IMG/VR virus record: IMGVR_UViG_3300008450_000179
Coordinates: 1-35,821 of that record
Direction: 5' to 3' (one strand)
From: a virus
Length of the DNA stretch: 35,821 nt
Numbering within the stretch: position 1 is the first letter of the stretch; each line of letters starts with the position of its first letter. The position numbers were made by a program, and so were the translations under genes. The notes beneath the pieces are model-generated. The model saw only the letters and a program-made list of their open reading frames with translations. It did not search any database and was not told where the DNA came from. Positions 115 to 12,254 of the stretch are shown here, in pieces.

Positions 115-240
115 GAATATTGCCCCCTTGTCCTTCCCAATGTTGTCAGCAATTGAAAAGCCAGCTACGGCATCCCCATTAGGAAGAAACCTAACCTCGG
201 CATCCCGAGCGATATTTCCAGCAATAGTTATGTTGTTCAT
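1..240 (-). CDS. ssb: Single-stranded DNA-binding protein, allele A (partial, C-terminus beyond window start)
   Basis: Reads leftward from ATG at 240 and is still open at base 1, giving the first 80 residues of an OB-fold SSB (starts MNNITIAG; LPNGDAVAGFS; WNCSIFGKRAESLAQYL; VSGTVSQRDY). The last ~38 residues are identical at DNA level to the complete copy at 35261-35677. The first ~42 differ at about 13 residues, with a sharp switch at base 114/115. Its ATG overlaps the HNH gene stop (ATGA). SSB coats ssDNA during phage replication and annealing. I read it as the alternative allele of the same gene, not a second gene. Confidence 0.85.
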   Translation of the reverse strand, partial: MNNITIAGNIARDAEVRFLPNGDAVAGFSIADNIGKDKGAIFWNCSIFGKRAESLAQYLTKGQAVTVSGTVSQRDYTDKD

Positions 241-737
241 GTGTTTTGCTCCATATTGTTAACATTTGCGAACTCACCAAAATATTGAGTTGCTGCTTGG
301 TTGTATGCAGCCGCTGCTGTTTCTTTTTCAGCGTATAGGCCTAGGTATATTTCCTTCTGTGCTACTTTGATACGTGCTCGCCACTTATTTAGCTTTGCCA
401 AAAAAGTTACACCCTTAAAACCAGACGCACTTCTTTTTTGAGTGGTTTGGTTTGCACAGTTTTGCGATCTTGTAACGGGCCGTAGGTTTTCAATCCTGTT
501 ATCACTTCTAATCCTGTTTATGTGGTCTATTTCCTGCGGGATATGCCCGAAATGAATCAGATAAACAAGTTGATGTGCCTTGTATGTTCTTCCAAGCAAC
601 TCAATAGAAACATGCCCACTGGTGCAGATTGACCCTGCCTTGCTTCCTATAACTGCCCTTGGACCAGATTGCTTCTTCCAAAAAAGTACGCCATCTTCAT
701 AATAAAGGTGCTCTAGTGCAGCAGTTTGCAAATTCAT
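237..737 (-). CDS. HNH homing-type endonuclease with AP2 DNA-binding domain
   Basis: 166 aa from ATG at 737, which overlaps the upstream stop as ATGA; its own stop overlaps the ssb ATG in the same way. An HNH_3-like core spans about residues 50-95 (H55, the IDH at 70-72, N80, the NLR at 84-86, SQN at 91-93). An AP2-like domain spans about 107-160 (GFKGV, KWRARI, YLGLYAEKETAAAAYNQAA, FGEFANVN). This HNH+AP2 arrangement is typical of free-standing phage homing nucleases, which cut alleles lacking the gene so that repair copies it in. It is visibly more AT-rich than its neighbours. The version of this locus at the window end lacks it. A longer in-frame extension to 941 has no support, because it runs through the annealing-protein gene. 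Family is fairly certain; mobility is inferred. Confidence 0.85.
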   Translation of the reverse strand: MNLQTAALEHLYYEDGVLFWKKQSGPRAVIGSKAGSICTSGHVSIELLGRTYKAHQLVYLIHFGHIPQEIDHINRIRSDNRIENLRPVTRSQNCANQTTQKRSASGFKGVTFLAKLNKWRARIKVAQKEIYLGLYAEKETAAAAYNQAATQYFGEFANVNNMEQNT

Positions 738-1279
738 GCTGCTTCCTTGTTTGTCAATTGTTCTGTCCGGTAGTCGTAGGCGTGTTTCAAACTGCCCCGG
801 TCTGCCTCGTCTGCCATTTTCCAAGCGGCTGCAAAGTGGCTCTTGAGCGTGGCAAGGTCTCTGGCAGTTTTGATAGCGGCCAAGTAGTAGCTCACTGCAA
901 CTGGTGGGGTTTCGTCTGCGTGTAGGTCGCCCTTGTGCCAAAGATCAAGCGCAGCACCGAAGCGCATAGCTGCATTGCGCAAGGCATCACCGATGCGCTC
1001 CTTCATGGCATTACAGCCTTTCTTTTCCCCCGCATCGCCGTAGCCCAAACGGGTCACGCCGCACACGGTTAGCTTTATCCATAGCCCCCCGATTTCATCC
1101 AAGGCAGGCAGGCCCTGCGCATCTAATGCCAGCGGCTCCCATGTCCAGGCGGGGTCTGTATCAAGTAGCCTATCGGTTAAGGCTGCGTGGCCCACATAGG
1201 CCAGCTTTACGCCAGCTTTGGGTAGGTGGCTGATTTGGTTTTCTGGGAATGGCTCCCGTAGCTTTGCTAAATTGCTCAT
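734..1279 (-). CDS. Rad52-like single-strand annealing protein (recombinase)
   Basis: 181 aa, starting at ATG 1279 after an AGGA ribosome site. The middle (about residues 60-118) has the Rad52/DdrA-like pattern: a substrate-binding strand (LWIKLTVCGVTRLGYGD), then a helix with MKERIGDALRNAAMRFGAALDLW. The C-terminal ~50 residues (SYYLAAIKTARDLATLKSHF..., YDYRTEQL) resemble the helical tail common behind phage annealing proteins. It would anneal complementary single strands for recombination and partners with the adjacent ssb. The last residues (TNKEAA) differ from allele B, where the tail instead reads TRATDVDLQRVADESKYQ. Exact superfamily placement (Rad52-like versus ERF-like) needs a profile search. 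Confidence 0.7.
   Translation of the reverse strand: MSNLAKLREPFPENQISHLPKAGVKLAYVGHAALTDRLLDTDPAWTWEPLALDAQGLPALDEIGGLWIKLTVCGVTRLGYGDAGEKKGCNAMKERIGDALRNAAMRFGAALDLWHKGDLHADETPPVAVSYYLAAIKTARDLATLKSHFAAAWKMADEADRGSLKHAYDYRTEQLTNKEAA
752..845. repeat. Exact 94-bp copy of 35728-35821 (contig-end overlap)
   Basis: The last 94 bases of the window equal 752-845, inside the annealing-protein gene. Left of 752 the two versions diverge completely, one leading into the HNH gene and the other straight into ssb. Confidence 0.9.
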
Positions 1280-3852: not shown

Positions 3853-4092
3853 ATGCATTGGTTTCCTAGGGAGCAAACCCCATCGGAGGCTTGGCGCTTG
3901 GGCGAAACTGGGCTATTGCTAGGACGAAGTGAGCAGGTATTTGAACCCGCCAAGTCATTGTTTCATCCTCTGTGTGCCGGGCTGGCAGGATGTCAATTTG
4001 CAGAAATGGCCCGATTTCGACCACCGATTTCGCAATCAAAAACACCTGCGGCGCATTGCGCTGTATGTGCTCGCAAAAAGGGGGCCGCATGA
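3853..4092 (+). CDS. Hypothetical protein, uncertain
   Basis: 79 aa. ATG 3853 has a GGAGG four bases upstream, and the stop overlaps the next ATG (ATGA), both supporting translation. It has a C-terminal pair of cysteines (HCAVCARKKG). However, a complementary ORF (3866-4090, minus) also reads fairly protein-like, so strand assignment is less sure than for neighbours. No family recognised. Confidence 0.45.
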   Translation: MHWFPREQTPSEAWRLGETGLLLGRSEQVFEPAKSLFHPLCAGLAGCQFAEMARFRPPISQSKTPAAHCAVCARKKGAA

Positions 4093-4391
4093 TTTATCTA
4101 AACGGCAAGCCCCAAGGCGTTATCACAACCGGCCTAGAAGACATACCCGCAGGCCGCAACTGCTTTGACCTAGATCGTATAAAAATCGCGCAAATAGAGC
4201 CAACGGAGCAAGAGCTGGCAAAGCAAGCGGCTATCCAGCGCAATCGTGAGACTGCATTGGCTAGGTACTACCGCATTGCAGGCAAGAACTCAGACCCTCG
4301 ATCTTTTCGCCCACAGACACACAACTTCACCCAAAGCCCTACACCTAGCAAAAAGGTGCATTTTTCAACTGGAAGGAACGCAAGCGTATGA
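4089..4391 (+). CDS. Hypothetical early protein
   Basis: 100 aa. The start at 4089 is taken from the ATGA overlap (MIYLNGKPQGVITTGLEDIPAGRNCFDL) rather than the longer frame. A central charged helix (EPTEQELAKQAAIQRNRETALARYYRIAGKN) is followed by a Ser/Thr/Pro-rich basic tail. Coupled to the next gene by ATGA. Function unknown. Confidence 0.6.
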   Translation: MIYLNGKPQGVITTGLEDIPAGRNCFDLDRIKIAQIEPTEQELAKQAAIQRNRETALARYYRIAGKNSDPRSFRPQTHNFTQSPTPSKKVHFSTGRNASV

Positions 4392-7046: not shown

Positions 7047-7246
7047 ACATGAAATTACTAAATTGGCTCAAGAAACGCAAGCTTAGATCACTAAAAGAGC
7101 AGCTTGCAATGGTCAACGCAAGAATAGATTGCGAAAGATATGTCGCAAATAAAACGGGAAAGTTATATCCGAATGTCATGGCTTCAAATGCAGAAGAACA
7201 TGCTTCATTGAGTTTCAGGATTGCAGAGCTTGAGGGGAACCTATGA
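7043..7246 (+). CDS. Small coiled-coil hypothetical protein
   Basis: 67 aa beginning MNMKLLNWLKKRKLRSLKEQ. The N-terminus is strongly basic, the middle is helical and the end is acidic (SLSFRIAELEGNL). ATGA overlaps on both sides fix the start. No family recognised. Confidence 0.55.
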   Translation: MNMKLLNWLKKRKLRSLKEQLAMVNARIDCERYVANKTGKLYPNVMASNAEEHASLSFRIAELEGNL

Positions 7247-7731
7247 ATATCAATGATTTACGCCACCACTGCGCAGACGATGCCGGGTGCCTTATTTGGC
7301 GGCGTAGCTGCTGCAACGGTCACCCAGCCATGCGAGTAGGTAAAAAGACCAAACTTGTGAGTAGGGTGCTATGGGAGGTTGCACACGGGCCTATACCTGC
7401 GGGCTGCATAGTGCGGGTTACTTGCGGCAATGTGCTGTGCATCAACCCTGAATGCACAGAGCTGACTACTTACCAGCGCTTAGGTAAGCAATTGGGCGCG
7501 CTGGGGATAATGAGTGGCCCGGTGCGCAGCGCAGCAATTGCACGGGCAAAGCGCAAGACGCAAGGCAAATTGACTGACGCGGCGGTGCGTGATATGCGTA
7601 CCAGCGACGAGCCAGGCAGGGTGTTGGCTGAGCGCTGGGGCGTATCACAGGGCCACGTTAGCAAGGTGCAAAAGCACAAAGCACGGCGCGACTTTTCTTC
7701 GCCTTTTGCGGGACTGGGGGCGAGGATATGA
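7243..7731 (+). CDS. HNH-fold protein lacking catalytic His, fused to HTH
   Basis: 162 aa. Residues ~15-75 align by eye with the HNH_3 layout (GCLIWRRSCCNGHPAM; VSRVLWEVAHGPIPAGCIVRVTCGNVLCINPECTELTT). The usual active-site His before the Cys/Asn strand reads V-R-V-T-C, and the terminal His of the NP-HL block reads NPECT, so catalysis looks lost. The C-terminus (KLTDAAVRDMRTSDEPGRVLAERWGVSQGHVSKVQ) is a clear HTH. It is probably a DNA-binding protein that kept the Zn-like scaffold. Coupled by ATGA on both sides. Confidence 0.65.
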   Translation: MNINDLRHHCADDAGCLIWRRSCCNGHPAMRVGKKTKLVSRVLWEVAHGPIPAGCIVRVTCGNVLCINPECTELTTYQRLGKQLGALGIMSGPVRSAAIARAKRKTQGKLTDAAVRDMRTSDEPGRVLAERWGVSQGHVSKVQKHKARRDFSSPFAGLGARI

Positions 7732-9372: not shown

Positions 9373-9750
9373 ATGATGAATGATTCTGCTGAAATTCTAA
9401 ACAGCCTGCTTTGCGACTGGTACCGCTGGGCCAAGGGCTACCAGCATGTGGGCGGGATAAACACCAGCCCAATGTTTAGGGAGGTTAAATCTGGCCGCCA
9501 ATGGGATACGGTGGACGAAATTATCAGCAGCGACTTGGTGCACAGCCAAATGGAGGCGCTGGATAGCATCATCATGCAGCTACGGGATGTGTACCGGACA
9601 ATCTTACAGCTACAAGCAAGAAACCTGCACACCGGCTATGCTGTGTGGACTAGCGCACGGCTACCGGCTGACCCACTAGAGCGGGCGGTGATATTGGGCG
9701 AGGCTAGGGCGGCTTTAACGGCTAAATTACAAAATGCGGGGGTTCTATGA
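9373..9750 (+). CDS. Antitermination Q-like late regulator (putative)
   Basis: 125 aa. It contains LLCDWYRWAKGYQHVGG near the start, then a helical region (VHSQMEALDSIIMQLRDVYRTILQLQARNL). The W-Y-R-W block and size resemble small phage late-activator/antiterminator families. The stronger argument is position: last early gene, immediately before a promoter, a long untranslated leader with a terminator, and the terminase genes, the same order as lambda Q-pR'-6S. Two ATGs (9373, 9376) are possible. A role as a late activator is an inference. Confidence 0.55.
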   Translation: MMNDSAEILNSLLCDWYRWAKGYQHVGGINTSPMFREVKSGRQWDTVDEIISSDLVHSQMEALDSIIMQLRDVYRTILQLQARNLHTGYAVWTSARLPADPLERAVILGEARAALTAKLQNAGVL

Positions 9751-9830
9751 GTTTTCCAAAATGCAAAAAAGTGTTGACAAGCCATAAAAACCTGTGGTAT
9801 CGTGCTCACCAGTTGGACACCCGACTCTAA
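9747..9830 (+). CDS. 27-codon ORF coupled to the Q-like gene
   Basis: ATG 9747 overlaps the stop of the Q-like gene (ATGA) and reads MSFPKCKKVLTSHKNLWYRA... to TAA at 9828-9830. Coupling is like the real genes upstream, and the peptide is basic and aromatic. Against it, the promoter at 9774-9803 lies inside it. It could be the remnant of a longer gene or chance. Confidence 0.3.
   Translation: MSFPKCKKVLTSHKNLWYRAHQLDTRL
9774..9803 (+). promoter_or_regulatory. Late promoter (TTGACA-N18-TGnTATCGT)
   Basis: Perfect -35 TTGACA at 9774-9779, 18-nt spacer, -10 TATCGT at 9798-9803 with an extended TG at 9795-9796. Predicted start about 9809-9811. It is placed like lambda pR', just after the Q-like gene. 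A 6-bp hairpin with ACAC loop (9811-9826) and a T7 run (9839-9845) follow at once and could pause polymerase. Confidence 0.7.
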
Positions 9831-9973
9831 AAATAGCCTTTTTTTGCAAGATTAAGGGTTTTTTAATAAGTGGAATGTGTAGGCTGATACACAAAGCGTC
9901 AACCGCTTAAACGATGCCAGGACTCGTAAGAGTTGCGGAACTTGGTGGAGATCGTGGGTAAGTACATCATGCT

Positions 9974-9992
9974 AGAGATCAGCACTAGCCCA
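9974..9992 (+). repeat. 19-nt element AGAGATCAGCACTAGCCCA, copy 1 in ncRNA
   Basis: Lies in a local hairpin (GCTAG 9971-9975 with CTAGC 9985-9989, 9-nt loop). An identical 19-mer lies 449 nt downstream. The CTAGCC part can also pair with 10182-10192. Confidence 0.8.
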
Positions 9993-10422
9993 CTTAATTT
10001 TTCAGCCTCCCGAAATTAGCACATCGCACACAGACACGTATCTAAGAGGTGCCGTTCTTCGTGGGGGCGAACTAATATGCCCGATGCCTCTGCACTATGT
10101 GTACGCACCGGCTTTTACCAAACCCTAGCCGCACGGTCGCAAGACAGCACACAGCCATTCCCCTAGGCTGATTGGGCAAGAGGCTAGGTGCTAGCTGCCA
10201 GGCTATTGGCAGATGACACCAGCACAAAACCCCGCTGTGGCCGCTAGACCATGCACCACGGCGGGGGCTGGTTAGCTTATGAGTAGAGATTTGACCGTAT
10301 AGGACGGTAGCTGCGGCGAGAGGTGCAAATCCTAAGAGTCTCTACCCATAAGCTGGAATGCGCAGGCAGATGCGACGGGGGAATGTCCGGAACCACCGCT
10401 TTTAAGCACAATGGTTTATGCC

Positions 10423-10441
10423 AGAGATCAGCACTAGCCCA
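10423..10441 (+). repeat. 19-nt element AGAGATCAGCACTAGCCCA, copy 2 in ncRNA
   Basis: Exact copy of 9974-9992. Here the local hairpin partner reads GCCAG, giving a C-A mismatch, so this copy may prefer the long-range partner GGCTAG-g-TGCT at 10182-10192. Its end also forms the 8-bp helix 10439-10446/10349-10356. Confidence 0.8.
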
Positions 10442-10483
10442 GCTTAACTAACTCTCCTTGATCGACGTAGTTGCCGATCTTTC

Positions 10484-10515
10484 GCCGCTCCGCAGTAATG
10501 CCGAGTGGCTTTTTT
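10484..10515 (+). terminator. Intrinsic terminator at end of leader RNA
   Basis: GCCGCTC (10484-10490) pairs with GAGTGGC (10503-10509; 7 bp, one G-U) around a 12-nt loop, followed at once by six Ts (10510-10515). It is 31 bp before the small terminase gene, so late transcription must read through it. Confidence 0.65.
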
Positions 10516-10546
10516 ATTACAGGGCAAATAGCCCCAGAAATAGGCT

Positions 10547-10930
10547 ATGGCAAACCCAAAGATTAAAGATGTTGGCAAGGAGACTCGGTTTAAGCCGGGT
10601 CAAGTAACAAACCCCGGTGGCAAGCCTGTTGGCGCACGTAACGCGCTACAGGGCGACTTTATGCGCGAGCTTGCCAAGGACTTTGCTGAGCACGGCGTTT
10701 CGGCGATTGTTGAGACACGAACAACACAGCCAGCCCAATACATGAAGATTATCGCCAGCCTGATGCCAAAAGAGCTGGAGATTAAGCGCCCACTTGAGGA
10801 AATGACAGATGACGACCTCATTGCTGGAGTTGCCGCCCTCCAAAGCTACCTTAATGCTGGTAGCACTTCAAAAGGAGTTGGAGACACGGCGAAGCCAGAA
10901 CAAGCTAAGCGACTACCGAGCCTACATTAA
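10547..10930 (+). CDS. Small terminase subunit-like protein (DUF5681-type N-terminus)
   Basis: 127 aa. Starts with the RFKPGQVTNPGGKPVGARNAL motif typical of DUF5681/phage packaging proteins, then a helical segment (GDFMRELAKDFAEHGVSAIVETRTTQPAQYMKIIASLMPKELEIKRP) and a variable tail. It directly precedes and overlaps the large terminase gene by 122 bases in another frame. It would recognise phage DNA and start packaging. Role from context; TerS proteins are poorly conserved. Confidence 0.65.
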   Translation: MANPKIKDVGKETRFKPGQVTNPGGKPVGARNALQGDFMRELAKDFAEHGVSAIVETRTTQPAQYMKIIASLMPKELEIKRPLEEMTDDDLIAGVAALQSYLNAGSTSKGVGDTAKPEQAKRLPSLH

Positions 10931-12254
10931 ACAGGACGAATTCCACGCTGCTGGGAAAACCAAGCGTGAGCGGTTGTTAATGGCAGGAAATCAGCTTGGG
11001 AAGACATGGAGCGCAGGTTTTGAATCCGCAATGCACCTTACAGGCCGATACCCAAGCGATTGGAATGGCCGGGTGTTTGATAAGCCTGTTGCGGGCTGGG
11101 CTGCTGGGGTTACATCCGAAGTGACCCGCGACTCTGTACAGCGCGTGTTATGTGGGCGGATCAATTCAATAGGGACTGGGGCGATACCCAAAGACTCCAT
11201 CAAAGACAAATCTCTAAAGCGCGGCGTGGCTGATGCCATTGACACGATGGTGATTCGCTTTGGTGGTGGTGGCGATGTGCAAGCAGGTGAGAGCCTGCTA
11301 GGTTTTAAGAGCTACGACCAGGGGCGCGAGAAGTTCCAGGCTGAAACGCTGGACTTTGTATGGTTTGATGAAGAACCAGACGACGACATTTACATGGAAG
11401 GTTTGACTCGGACAAACGCCACAAATGGCATTGTCTACATGACGTTTACCCCATTAAAGGGCATGACGACAACGGTTAAGCGCTTCCTGATAGACAAGCC
11501 TGCTGGTACGCATGTCACCAGTATGACGATTGAAGATGCTGAGCACTACACGCCAGAGCAGCGGTCAGCAATCATTGCAAGCTACCCCGCGCATGAACGA
11601 GAAGCTCGAACAAAAGGCATCCCTTCGCTTGGTTCTGGTCGGATATTTGCCATTGATGAGGAATCGATAAAGGTTGCGGCCTTTCCAATTCCTGAGCATT
11701 GGGCGCAGCTTGGAGCACTGGACTTTGGATGGGATCACCCAAGCGCATCAGTTCGCATGGCATGGGACAAAGACAGCGACACGGTTTATGTGACTGATTG
11801 CCATAGGCAAAAAGAGCAGACACCGCAAATGTTCGCTTTGTCGCTTAAAGAGTGGCCGGATTGGTTGCCTTTTTCATGGCCGCATGACGGTTTGCAGCAC
11901 GACAAAGGCTCAGGAGAACAGTTAGCCGCTTTGTACAAGAAAGCCGGGCTAAAAATGATGCCTGAGCGCGCTACGTTCCCTGATGGGACAAACGGCGTAG
12001 AGGCTGGTTTACAAGATATGTTGCAGCGAATGCAGTTAAAGAAATTCAAGGTATTCAGCCATTTAAGCGACTGGTTTGAAGAGTTCCGCATGTACCACCG
12101 GAAGGATGGAAAAGTGGTCAAAGAGTCGGACGACTTGATGGCCGCAACGCGTTACGCATGGATGATGCGCCGCTACGGACTGTCGAAAAAAGAGGCTGAG
12201 TACAGCCAACACGTTTATCAACCCCTTCCAGATCAGGACGGACTTTACTTCTAA
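10809..12254 (+). CDS. terL: Large terminase subunit (packaging ATPase/nuclease)
   Basis: 481 aa. Walker A GNQLGKT at residues ~60-66 after the typical ERLLMA lead. Walker B LDFVWFDEEP at ~181-190. Motif III region YMTFTPLKG at ~210-218. RNase-H-like nuclease domain begins ALDFGWDHP at ~303 with its first metal Asp at D305. Length fits the family. It pumps DNA into the prohead through the portal, which follows 3 bases later. The start at 10809 has GAGG 9 nt upstream; ATG 10854 is an alternative. Confidence 0.92.
   Translation: MTTSLLELPPSKATLMLVALQKELETRRSQNKLSDYRAYIKQDEFHAAGKTKRERLLMAGNQLGKTWSAGFESAMHLTGRYPSDWNGRVFDKPVAGWAAGVTSEVTRDSVQRVLCGRINSIGTGAIPKDSIKDKSLKRGVADAIDTMVIRFGGGGDVQAGESLLGFKSYDQGREKFQAETLDFVWFDEEPDDDIYMEGLTRTNATNGIVYMTFTPLKGMTTTVKRFLIDKPAGTHVTSMTIEDAEHYTPEQRSAIIASYPAHEREARTKGIPSLGSGRIFAIDEESIKVAAFPIPEHWAQLGALDFGWDHPSASVRMAWDKDSDTVYVTDCHRQKEQTPQMFALSLKEWPDWLPFSWPHDGLQHDKGSGEQLAALYKKAGLKMMPERATFPDGTNGVEAGLQDMLQRMQLKKFKVFSHLSDWFEEFRMYHRKDGKVVKESDDLMAATRYAWMMRRYGLSKKEAEYSQHVYQPLPDQDGLYF

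Follow-up and report, generated by a model that had tools for sequence, protein, structure and literature searches.

A noncoding unit between the late regulator and terminase genes

What would a phage do with ~700 nt of noncoding sequence placed directly ahead of its terminase genes? The viral record IMGVR_UViG_3300008450_000179, analysed here as a single window of 35,821 nt, contains such a stretch at 9810–10515, a structured noncoding unit flanked by a gene for a Q-like late regulator and by terminase genes (Table 1). An earlier note on this DNA had described it as a giant structured non-coding RNA without a sizeable ORF, bounded by a promoter and a terminator. The noncoding claim holds: the longest ORF within the unit has ~50 codons, and the longest stop-free stretch (89 codons) shows no excess over the shuffled median of 92. 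A protein-coding region was rejected on this ground, and a search of the window for tmRNA and tRNA genes led to their rejection as well. The + strand folds with z = -2.7, beating 20 of 20 shuffles, and the - strand with z = -1.6. Elsewhere in the window, the phage has two HNH_3-type endonuclease genes, at 237–941 (-), with an AP2 domain, and at 7243–7731 (+).

Searches with the Q-like protein led to ~30 phage contigs with a readable interval from the Q gene to the small terminase gene (loci are given L numbers). PHROG 79, annotated as "anti-termination protein Q-like", is weakly matched by 5 of 13 family members (best E 0.0038), unlike the window's own protein, which has no PHROG 79 match. Most relatives (~20) have a TTGAC-type promoter-like pair just 3' of the Q-like gene, and a similar leader containing CTCTAAAAAT comes next. 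A hairpin found immediately after the leader in relatives, terminator 1, is by eye reduced to AGCC-UUUUUUU in the window. The terminator at 10484–10515 is intact, and was not flagged by a simple terminator scan. Both proposed boundaries stand, the promoter (9774–9803) with comparative support.

The order of elements is that of a lambda-type late leader: Q-like gene (weak match), promoter, leader with terminator, and late genes. The same order is shared with the PR' late leader (6S RNA) and with StxS, a stable sRNA that is made from a late leader and provides a precedent (PMC7873438). The window differs in that its RNA would be ~700 nt and multi-domain, whereas lambda-type leaders are short, in its location upstream of terS, and in the erosion of terminator 1.

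Several other elements were seen in leaders of the relatives. In L147, L149, L150 and L140 a helix module, AAAACGCAUGCUGAUU ... AGUCAGCAGCCGUUUU, lies 3' of the Q gene and opens the leader of a sub-group, in some of which the K element described below comes next. A small conserved ORF (...SGQLGMLRTRDEGGY...GNVRLGTPKEN...) with the look of a mobile endonuclease occurs at 3994–4365 of L094 and 3' of the Q gene in L095 and L101; its position varies among relatives, being 5' or 3' of the late promoter.

Table 1. Features of the late leader region in the window
Feature	Position	Strand	Evidence or remark
Q-like late regulator gene (125 aa)	9373–9750	+	Position; homologues; weak PHROG 79 matches in family
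Late promoter TTGACA-18-TG.TATCGT	9774–9803	+	Promoter-like site at equivalent place in ~20 relatives
Leader: hairpin 9811–9826 and CTCTAAAAAT motif	9811–9861	+	By-eye alignment; fold
K element 1 (K1)	9865–9998	+	Model R1 built without window, E 1.1e-8
K1 closing helix	9865–9873/9990–9998	+	Model R1
K1 hairpin A, loop GGCUGA	9877–9892	+	
K1 insert	9893–9970	+	
K1 hairpin B, loop AGAUCAGCA	9971–9989	+	
Conserved block D5: CGCACAC..GACA..AAGAGGUGC.G..UCGUGG.GGCGAA	10010–10072	+	Also in L094, L144, L160
Variable segment	10073–10118	+	tRNA-Trp(CCA) occupies equivalent place in L094
Core domain	10120–10276	+	Six members; model R3 built without window
Core H1	10124–10130/10182–10188	+	
Core H4	10147–10150/10174–10177	+	
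Core H3	10152–10156/10166–10170	+	
Core H5	10195–10199/10208–10212	+	
Core H6	10219–10223/10267–10271	+	
Core H7	10230–10240/10256–10266	+	
16-bp stem (10274–10289/10339–10354) with hypervariable interior	10274–10354	+	Stem identical in L094, interior unrelated
K element 2 (K2), loop A GGCAGA, loop B AGAUCAGCA	10350–10445	+	Model R1 built without window, E 1.9e-8
Hairpin Y (GAUCGACGUAGUUGCCGAUC)	10460–10479	+	Similar hairpin in leaders of L094–L098
Intrinsic terminator, stem 10484–10509 and T run	10484–10515	+	Fold z = -3.4; near-identical in L093
Putative small terminase subunit, DUF5681-like (first of the late genes)	10547–10930	+	Precedes TerL; weak Pfam match; PHROG 8771; homologues
Terminase large subunit	10809–12254	+	Pfam Terminase_6N/6C

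The K element and its distribution

An internal repeat in the window (9969–9992 and 10418–10441), whose hairpin could be traced to other phages, led to an apparently undescribed RNA element, here called K, that is absent from Rfam 15 and widespread in phages. We found no description of it in the open-access literature, which does not in itself prove that there is none. In K, a closing helix encloses hairpin A (AAUGCGCAGGCUGAUGCGC), a hypervariable insert and hairpin B (GCCGG-AGAUCAGCA-CCGGC), and the complementary loops of the two hairpins would form a kissing loop. The element is a three-way junction, ~70–240 nt in length and modular, and it also occurs alone. Model R1, built without the window, has exactly two good matches there, the next having an E-value of 2.6 (E-values from short-calibrated models such as these are rough). 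Loops A and B can form six Watson–Crick pairs in K1 and have one mismatch mid-pairing in K2. The GUAA hairpin mentioned in the earlier note was located inside the insert of K1.

The K structure is well supported by covariation. In a set of 29 copies that leaves out the window, 94.8% of cells are paired, against 27–51% in slid registers, and two-sided changes occur at 11 of the 24 pairs and at three of the five loop–loop pairs; none of 500 shuffles did as well. The two sides of the kissing pairing change together: GCUGAU/AUCAGC is replaced by GAUGAU/AUCAUC in L144 and L290, and by GCGAU/AUCGC in L145. The set of 29 copies was picked by hairpin B, which therefore cannot vary within it. In copies found by BLAST or by model, hairpin B does vary with pairing kept, as in K1 of the window (GCUAG/CUAGC), P1 (GUCGG/CCGAC), L289 (GCUGG/CCAGC) and L288 (GCAGG/CCUGC).

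Hundreds of phages and prophages of proteobacteria carry K, in many cases between Q and holin or close to tRNAs. A scan for hairpin B in viral contigs gave at least 120 stretches, and BLAST of the K 5' arm in a phage collection, run with a permissive E-value limit, matched 251 records. Late-region copies are found in HK633 (between the annotated lambda-like PR' and holin), phiEt88 (in the order Q-like gene, K, tRNA-Phe), IME10, Klebsiella phage 6 and an E. coli prophage, and K is also carried by other E. coli prophages. Outside late leaders, K lies between tRNA-Thr and tRNA-Ile in P1, where it overlaps the annotated plp on the opposite strand, among tRNA genes in D3, and in the early region of PS-1. 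Paired copies are frequent (L284, L297, L301, L288 and, weakly, P1). Among 301 genomes sampled from a single family, to which a Polaromonas-type genome belongs, five have K, a frequency as expected for prophages. Terminase-anchored loci mostly lack the RNA, and in the subset sampled a K element was found in L049 only.

Other RNAs and RNA-like modules were observed around K. Just 5' of K in P1 (L298 2185–2800; record 69,502–70,117) and HK633 (L299 2400–2510) there is a repeated module, AACAGGUAAGAGCAUU ... (A/G)GUGCUCUUUCC, whose P1 copy has an interior with T-arm-like hairpins (GGGUUCGAAUCCC, GGGUUCAUAUCCC). The module appears to be a further scaffold of the tRNA-like kind, in degenerate form. 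The P1 gene plp (L298 2155–2532), antisense over K, also overlaps the end of tRNA-Thr, and its annotation may be spurious. An abiF RNA (RF03085) ends six bases 5' of a K element in L049 (3635–3814), and in Pseudomonas phage PS-1 (L281 2264–2581) a Proteo-phage-1 RNA (RF03044) lies ~150 nt upstream of K. These families and Betaproteobacteria-1 resemble K as phage or prophage RNAs that lie beside it or in K loci; in contrast, their matches are at other coordinates, and K matches none of them.

The earlier note had inferred that the whole RNA is a member or a relative of a class such as GOLLD or ROOL. GOLLD is a large ornate phage RNA with late expression, a tRNA near or inside its linker, and variable regions, and ROOL, of phages and prophages, occurs near tRNAs and combines a conserved kissing loop with a disordered variable linker (PMC12286853). 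The likeness is one of setting and style only: a location in the late region of a phage, tRNAs nearby or inserted, a conserved scaffold, variable linkers and a kissing loop. Rfam 15 has no match in the window at gathering thresholds. With the limit relaxed to E ≤ 10, the matches that appear are weak and implausible, and none is to GOLLD, ROOL, HEARO or OLE. In the homologous loci, gathering thresholds likewise gave no match to these four families, the only matches being tRNAs, Betaproteobacteria-1 and abiF RNAs, all at other coordinates. The helices differ from those of GOLLD, and the window modules are found separately in other phages; unlike in ROOL, the kissing loop is confined to one small three-way junction, in an element that is modular and found alone. 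Sequence and structure give no support to membership or kinship, and a diverged GOLLD or ROOL forming an RNA cage is already disfavoured, with a probability that we consider very low.

Core domain and variable segments

BLASTN of the window RNA against 50,697 phage records gave no match, and the 19-mer from the internal repeat had no exact match among viral contigs. Among the relatives, L094 has a homologue of the window RNA in the same place (67% identity over 566 nt, E 1e-48), with a complete tRNA-Trp(CCA) inside it (ARAGORN) and an HNH-like ORF upstream. L153, a further relative, also has a tRNA-Trp(CCA) in its late leader (4055–4130).

The core domain is common to the window, L094, L096, L098, L133 and L138, always between the Q-like gene and the terminase genes, and the evidence for it comes from these six members. 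With helices placed by hand, 219 of 221 cells are paired and 29 of 37 pairs are compensatory, and when the 3' strands are dealt anew, 68% remain paired. Placement by hand is biased towards pairing, and the core was therefore checked independently in two ways. RNAalifold, given no input structure, recovered most core helices, with compensation at 17 of 31 pairs, and the five sequences other than the window have two-sided changes at 21 of 37 predicted pairs, a count equalled by none of 500 shuffles. Covariance model R3, built from the same five sequences, matches the window at 10115–10270 (E 1.7e-24; next match 4.2). A core motif pattern had 17 matches, among which the core members were all known or re-fetches, and no additional member emerged when the R2 core model was applied to 46 other loci.

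Covariation shows two K elements and a separate multi-helix core within the RNA. As for the initial description of a giant structured RNA, covariation, the check that had been proposed for it, was found among real homologues and is strong in both K and the core; the structure is a chain of modules instead of a single monolithic fold. These compensatory changes, which preserve pairing though the sequence changes completely, also argue against a DNA-level explanation. Cos sites are commonly located directly upstream of terS, where the RNA region also lies, and the noncoding DNA could accordingly be a cos or pac packaging site whose inverted repeats are bound by terminase. Beyond the argument from pairing, K in other phages adjoins lysis or tRNA genes rather than terminase, and we regard a packaging site as very improbable.

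The alignments further show that the conserved stems are scaffolds around hypervariable segments. The inserts of K, 5–176 nt long, comprise 83 unique sequences that fall into 72 unrelated groups. The 16-bp stem, which had been noticed earlier and is located here at 10274–10289/10339–10354, repeats this pattern of a constant stem with a changing interior; its 3' arm overlaps the closing helix of K2 at 10350–10354, so that the two helices cannot both be complete. In some relatives an entire tRNA or a tRNA-like T arm makes up the variable segment: a tRNA-Pro lies inside the K element of L205, and a tRNA-like T arm was detected in 4 of 91 inserts (0.02 expected). By eye, block D5 in L144 and L160 comes after a structure that resembles a tRNA and includes a T arm. 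Matches to the D5 pattern beyond L094, L144/L158 and L160 were rejected as chance, apparently in coding sequence. The tRNA-like structures in these late leaders (L144 3420–3525 and L160 835–930) have ends resembling an acceptor stem and a T arm of canonical form, and an unusual middle replaces the D and anticodon arms.

Such tRNA and tRNA-like contents raise the possibility that K and related modules are remains of RNA-gene cassettes, punctuating the tRNA arrays of phages for processing or recombination, with inserts that are decaying tRNAs. The tRNA neighbours of K in P1, D3, phiEt88, HC6 and L099 fit this explanation, as do the inserts with a tRNA or T arm. A same-strand tRNA within 600 nt of K was, however, found in just 12 of 119 loci (2.7 expected), so that the link to tRNAs is partial, and most inserts lack a T arm. 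The pairing of scaffold and core is also strongly constrained, unlike decay. We consider cassette remains quite unlikely.

A possible role for the RNA in phage biology

The site between a late promoter and a terminator, immediately 5' of the late operon, and the similar multi-terminator leaders of most relatives could instead indicate late regulation in cis. The leader RNA would then act on the transcribing polymerase in the manner of the HK022 put RNA, or time read-through of the terminator into terS, and its modules would be antitermination or pausing elements. The put RNA is a short, cis-acting folded RNA in a phage leader, whereas K and the core are optional in relatives and present elsewhere. 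L093, the nearest relative by Q protein (91%), keeps the promoter and both terminators without K or the core, which argues that these modules are not needed for late expression and that the RNA is dispensable. The hypervariable inserts and the location of K among tRNAs in P1 and D3 also argue against regulation in cis, which we judge to be unlikely.

The explanation that we favour, with confidence a little short of even, is that the unit is a phage late-leader RNA gene, and that its product is an abundant late RNA acting in trans, in which K scaffolds present exchangeable modules that serve as a decoy or sponge. RNA polymerase would start near 9810 at the late promoter and, owing to the erosion of terminator 1 in the window, would transcribe ~700 nt before stopping at 10484–10515. 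After modification by the Q-like protein, polymerase would continue past this terminator into terS. Acting in trans, the RNA may present these modules to a partner from the host or the phage, and the modules, tRNA-like in some phages, are possibly decoys or sponges. A trans-acting scaffold of this kind would account for the constant scaffold with changing inserts, for exchange between unrelated phages, and for dispensability. The constant clamp and changing payload suggest a module-presenting scaffold, and the tRNA-like payloads suggest decoys or sponges; trans action and the decoy role are uncertain, both being read from architecture. Counting against this explanation are the mismatch in the kissing loop of K2, the K elements away from late leaders (P1, D3 and PS-1), and the folding of inserts, which is weakly stronger than that of shuffles (mean z -0.5).

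A broader proposal, about which we have more doubt, is that K represents a new and very widespread class of phage scaffold RNA. Its kissing-loop clamp would hold exchangeable, fast-changing payloads (some tRNA-like) that are made late, for example as decoys against RNA-acting host defences, and the window RNA would string two such elements and a further new domain into a 700-nt transcript. If the inserts are indeed exchangeable payloads, phages would have a new way to carry and swap RNA effectors. To our knowledge, GOLLD, ROOL and similar large phage RNAs have no known function, and their hosts are mostly hard to handle. K is small, has strong covariation, and is found in phages that infect standard laboratory hosts (P1, HK633 and D3), which would make the role of ornate late phage RNAs directly testable.
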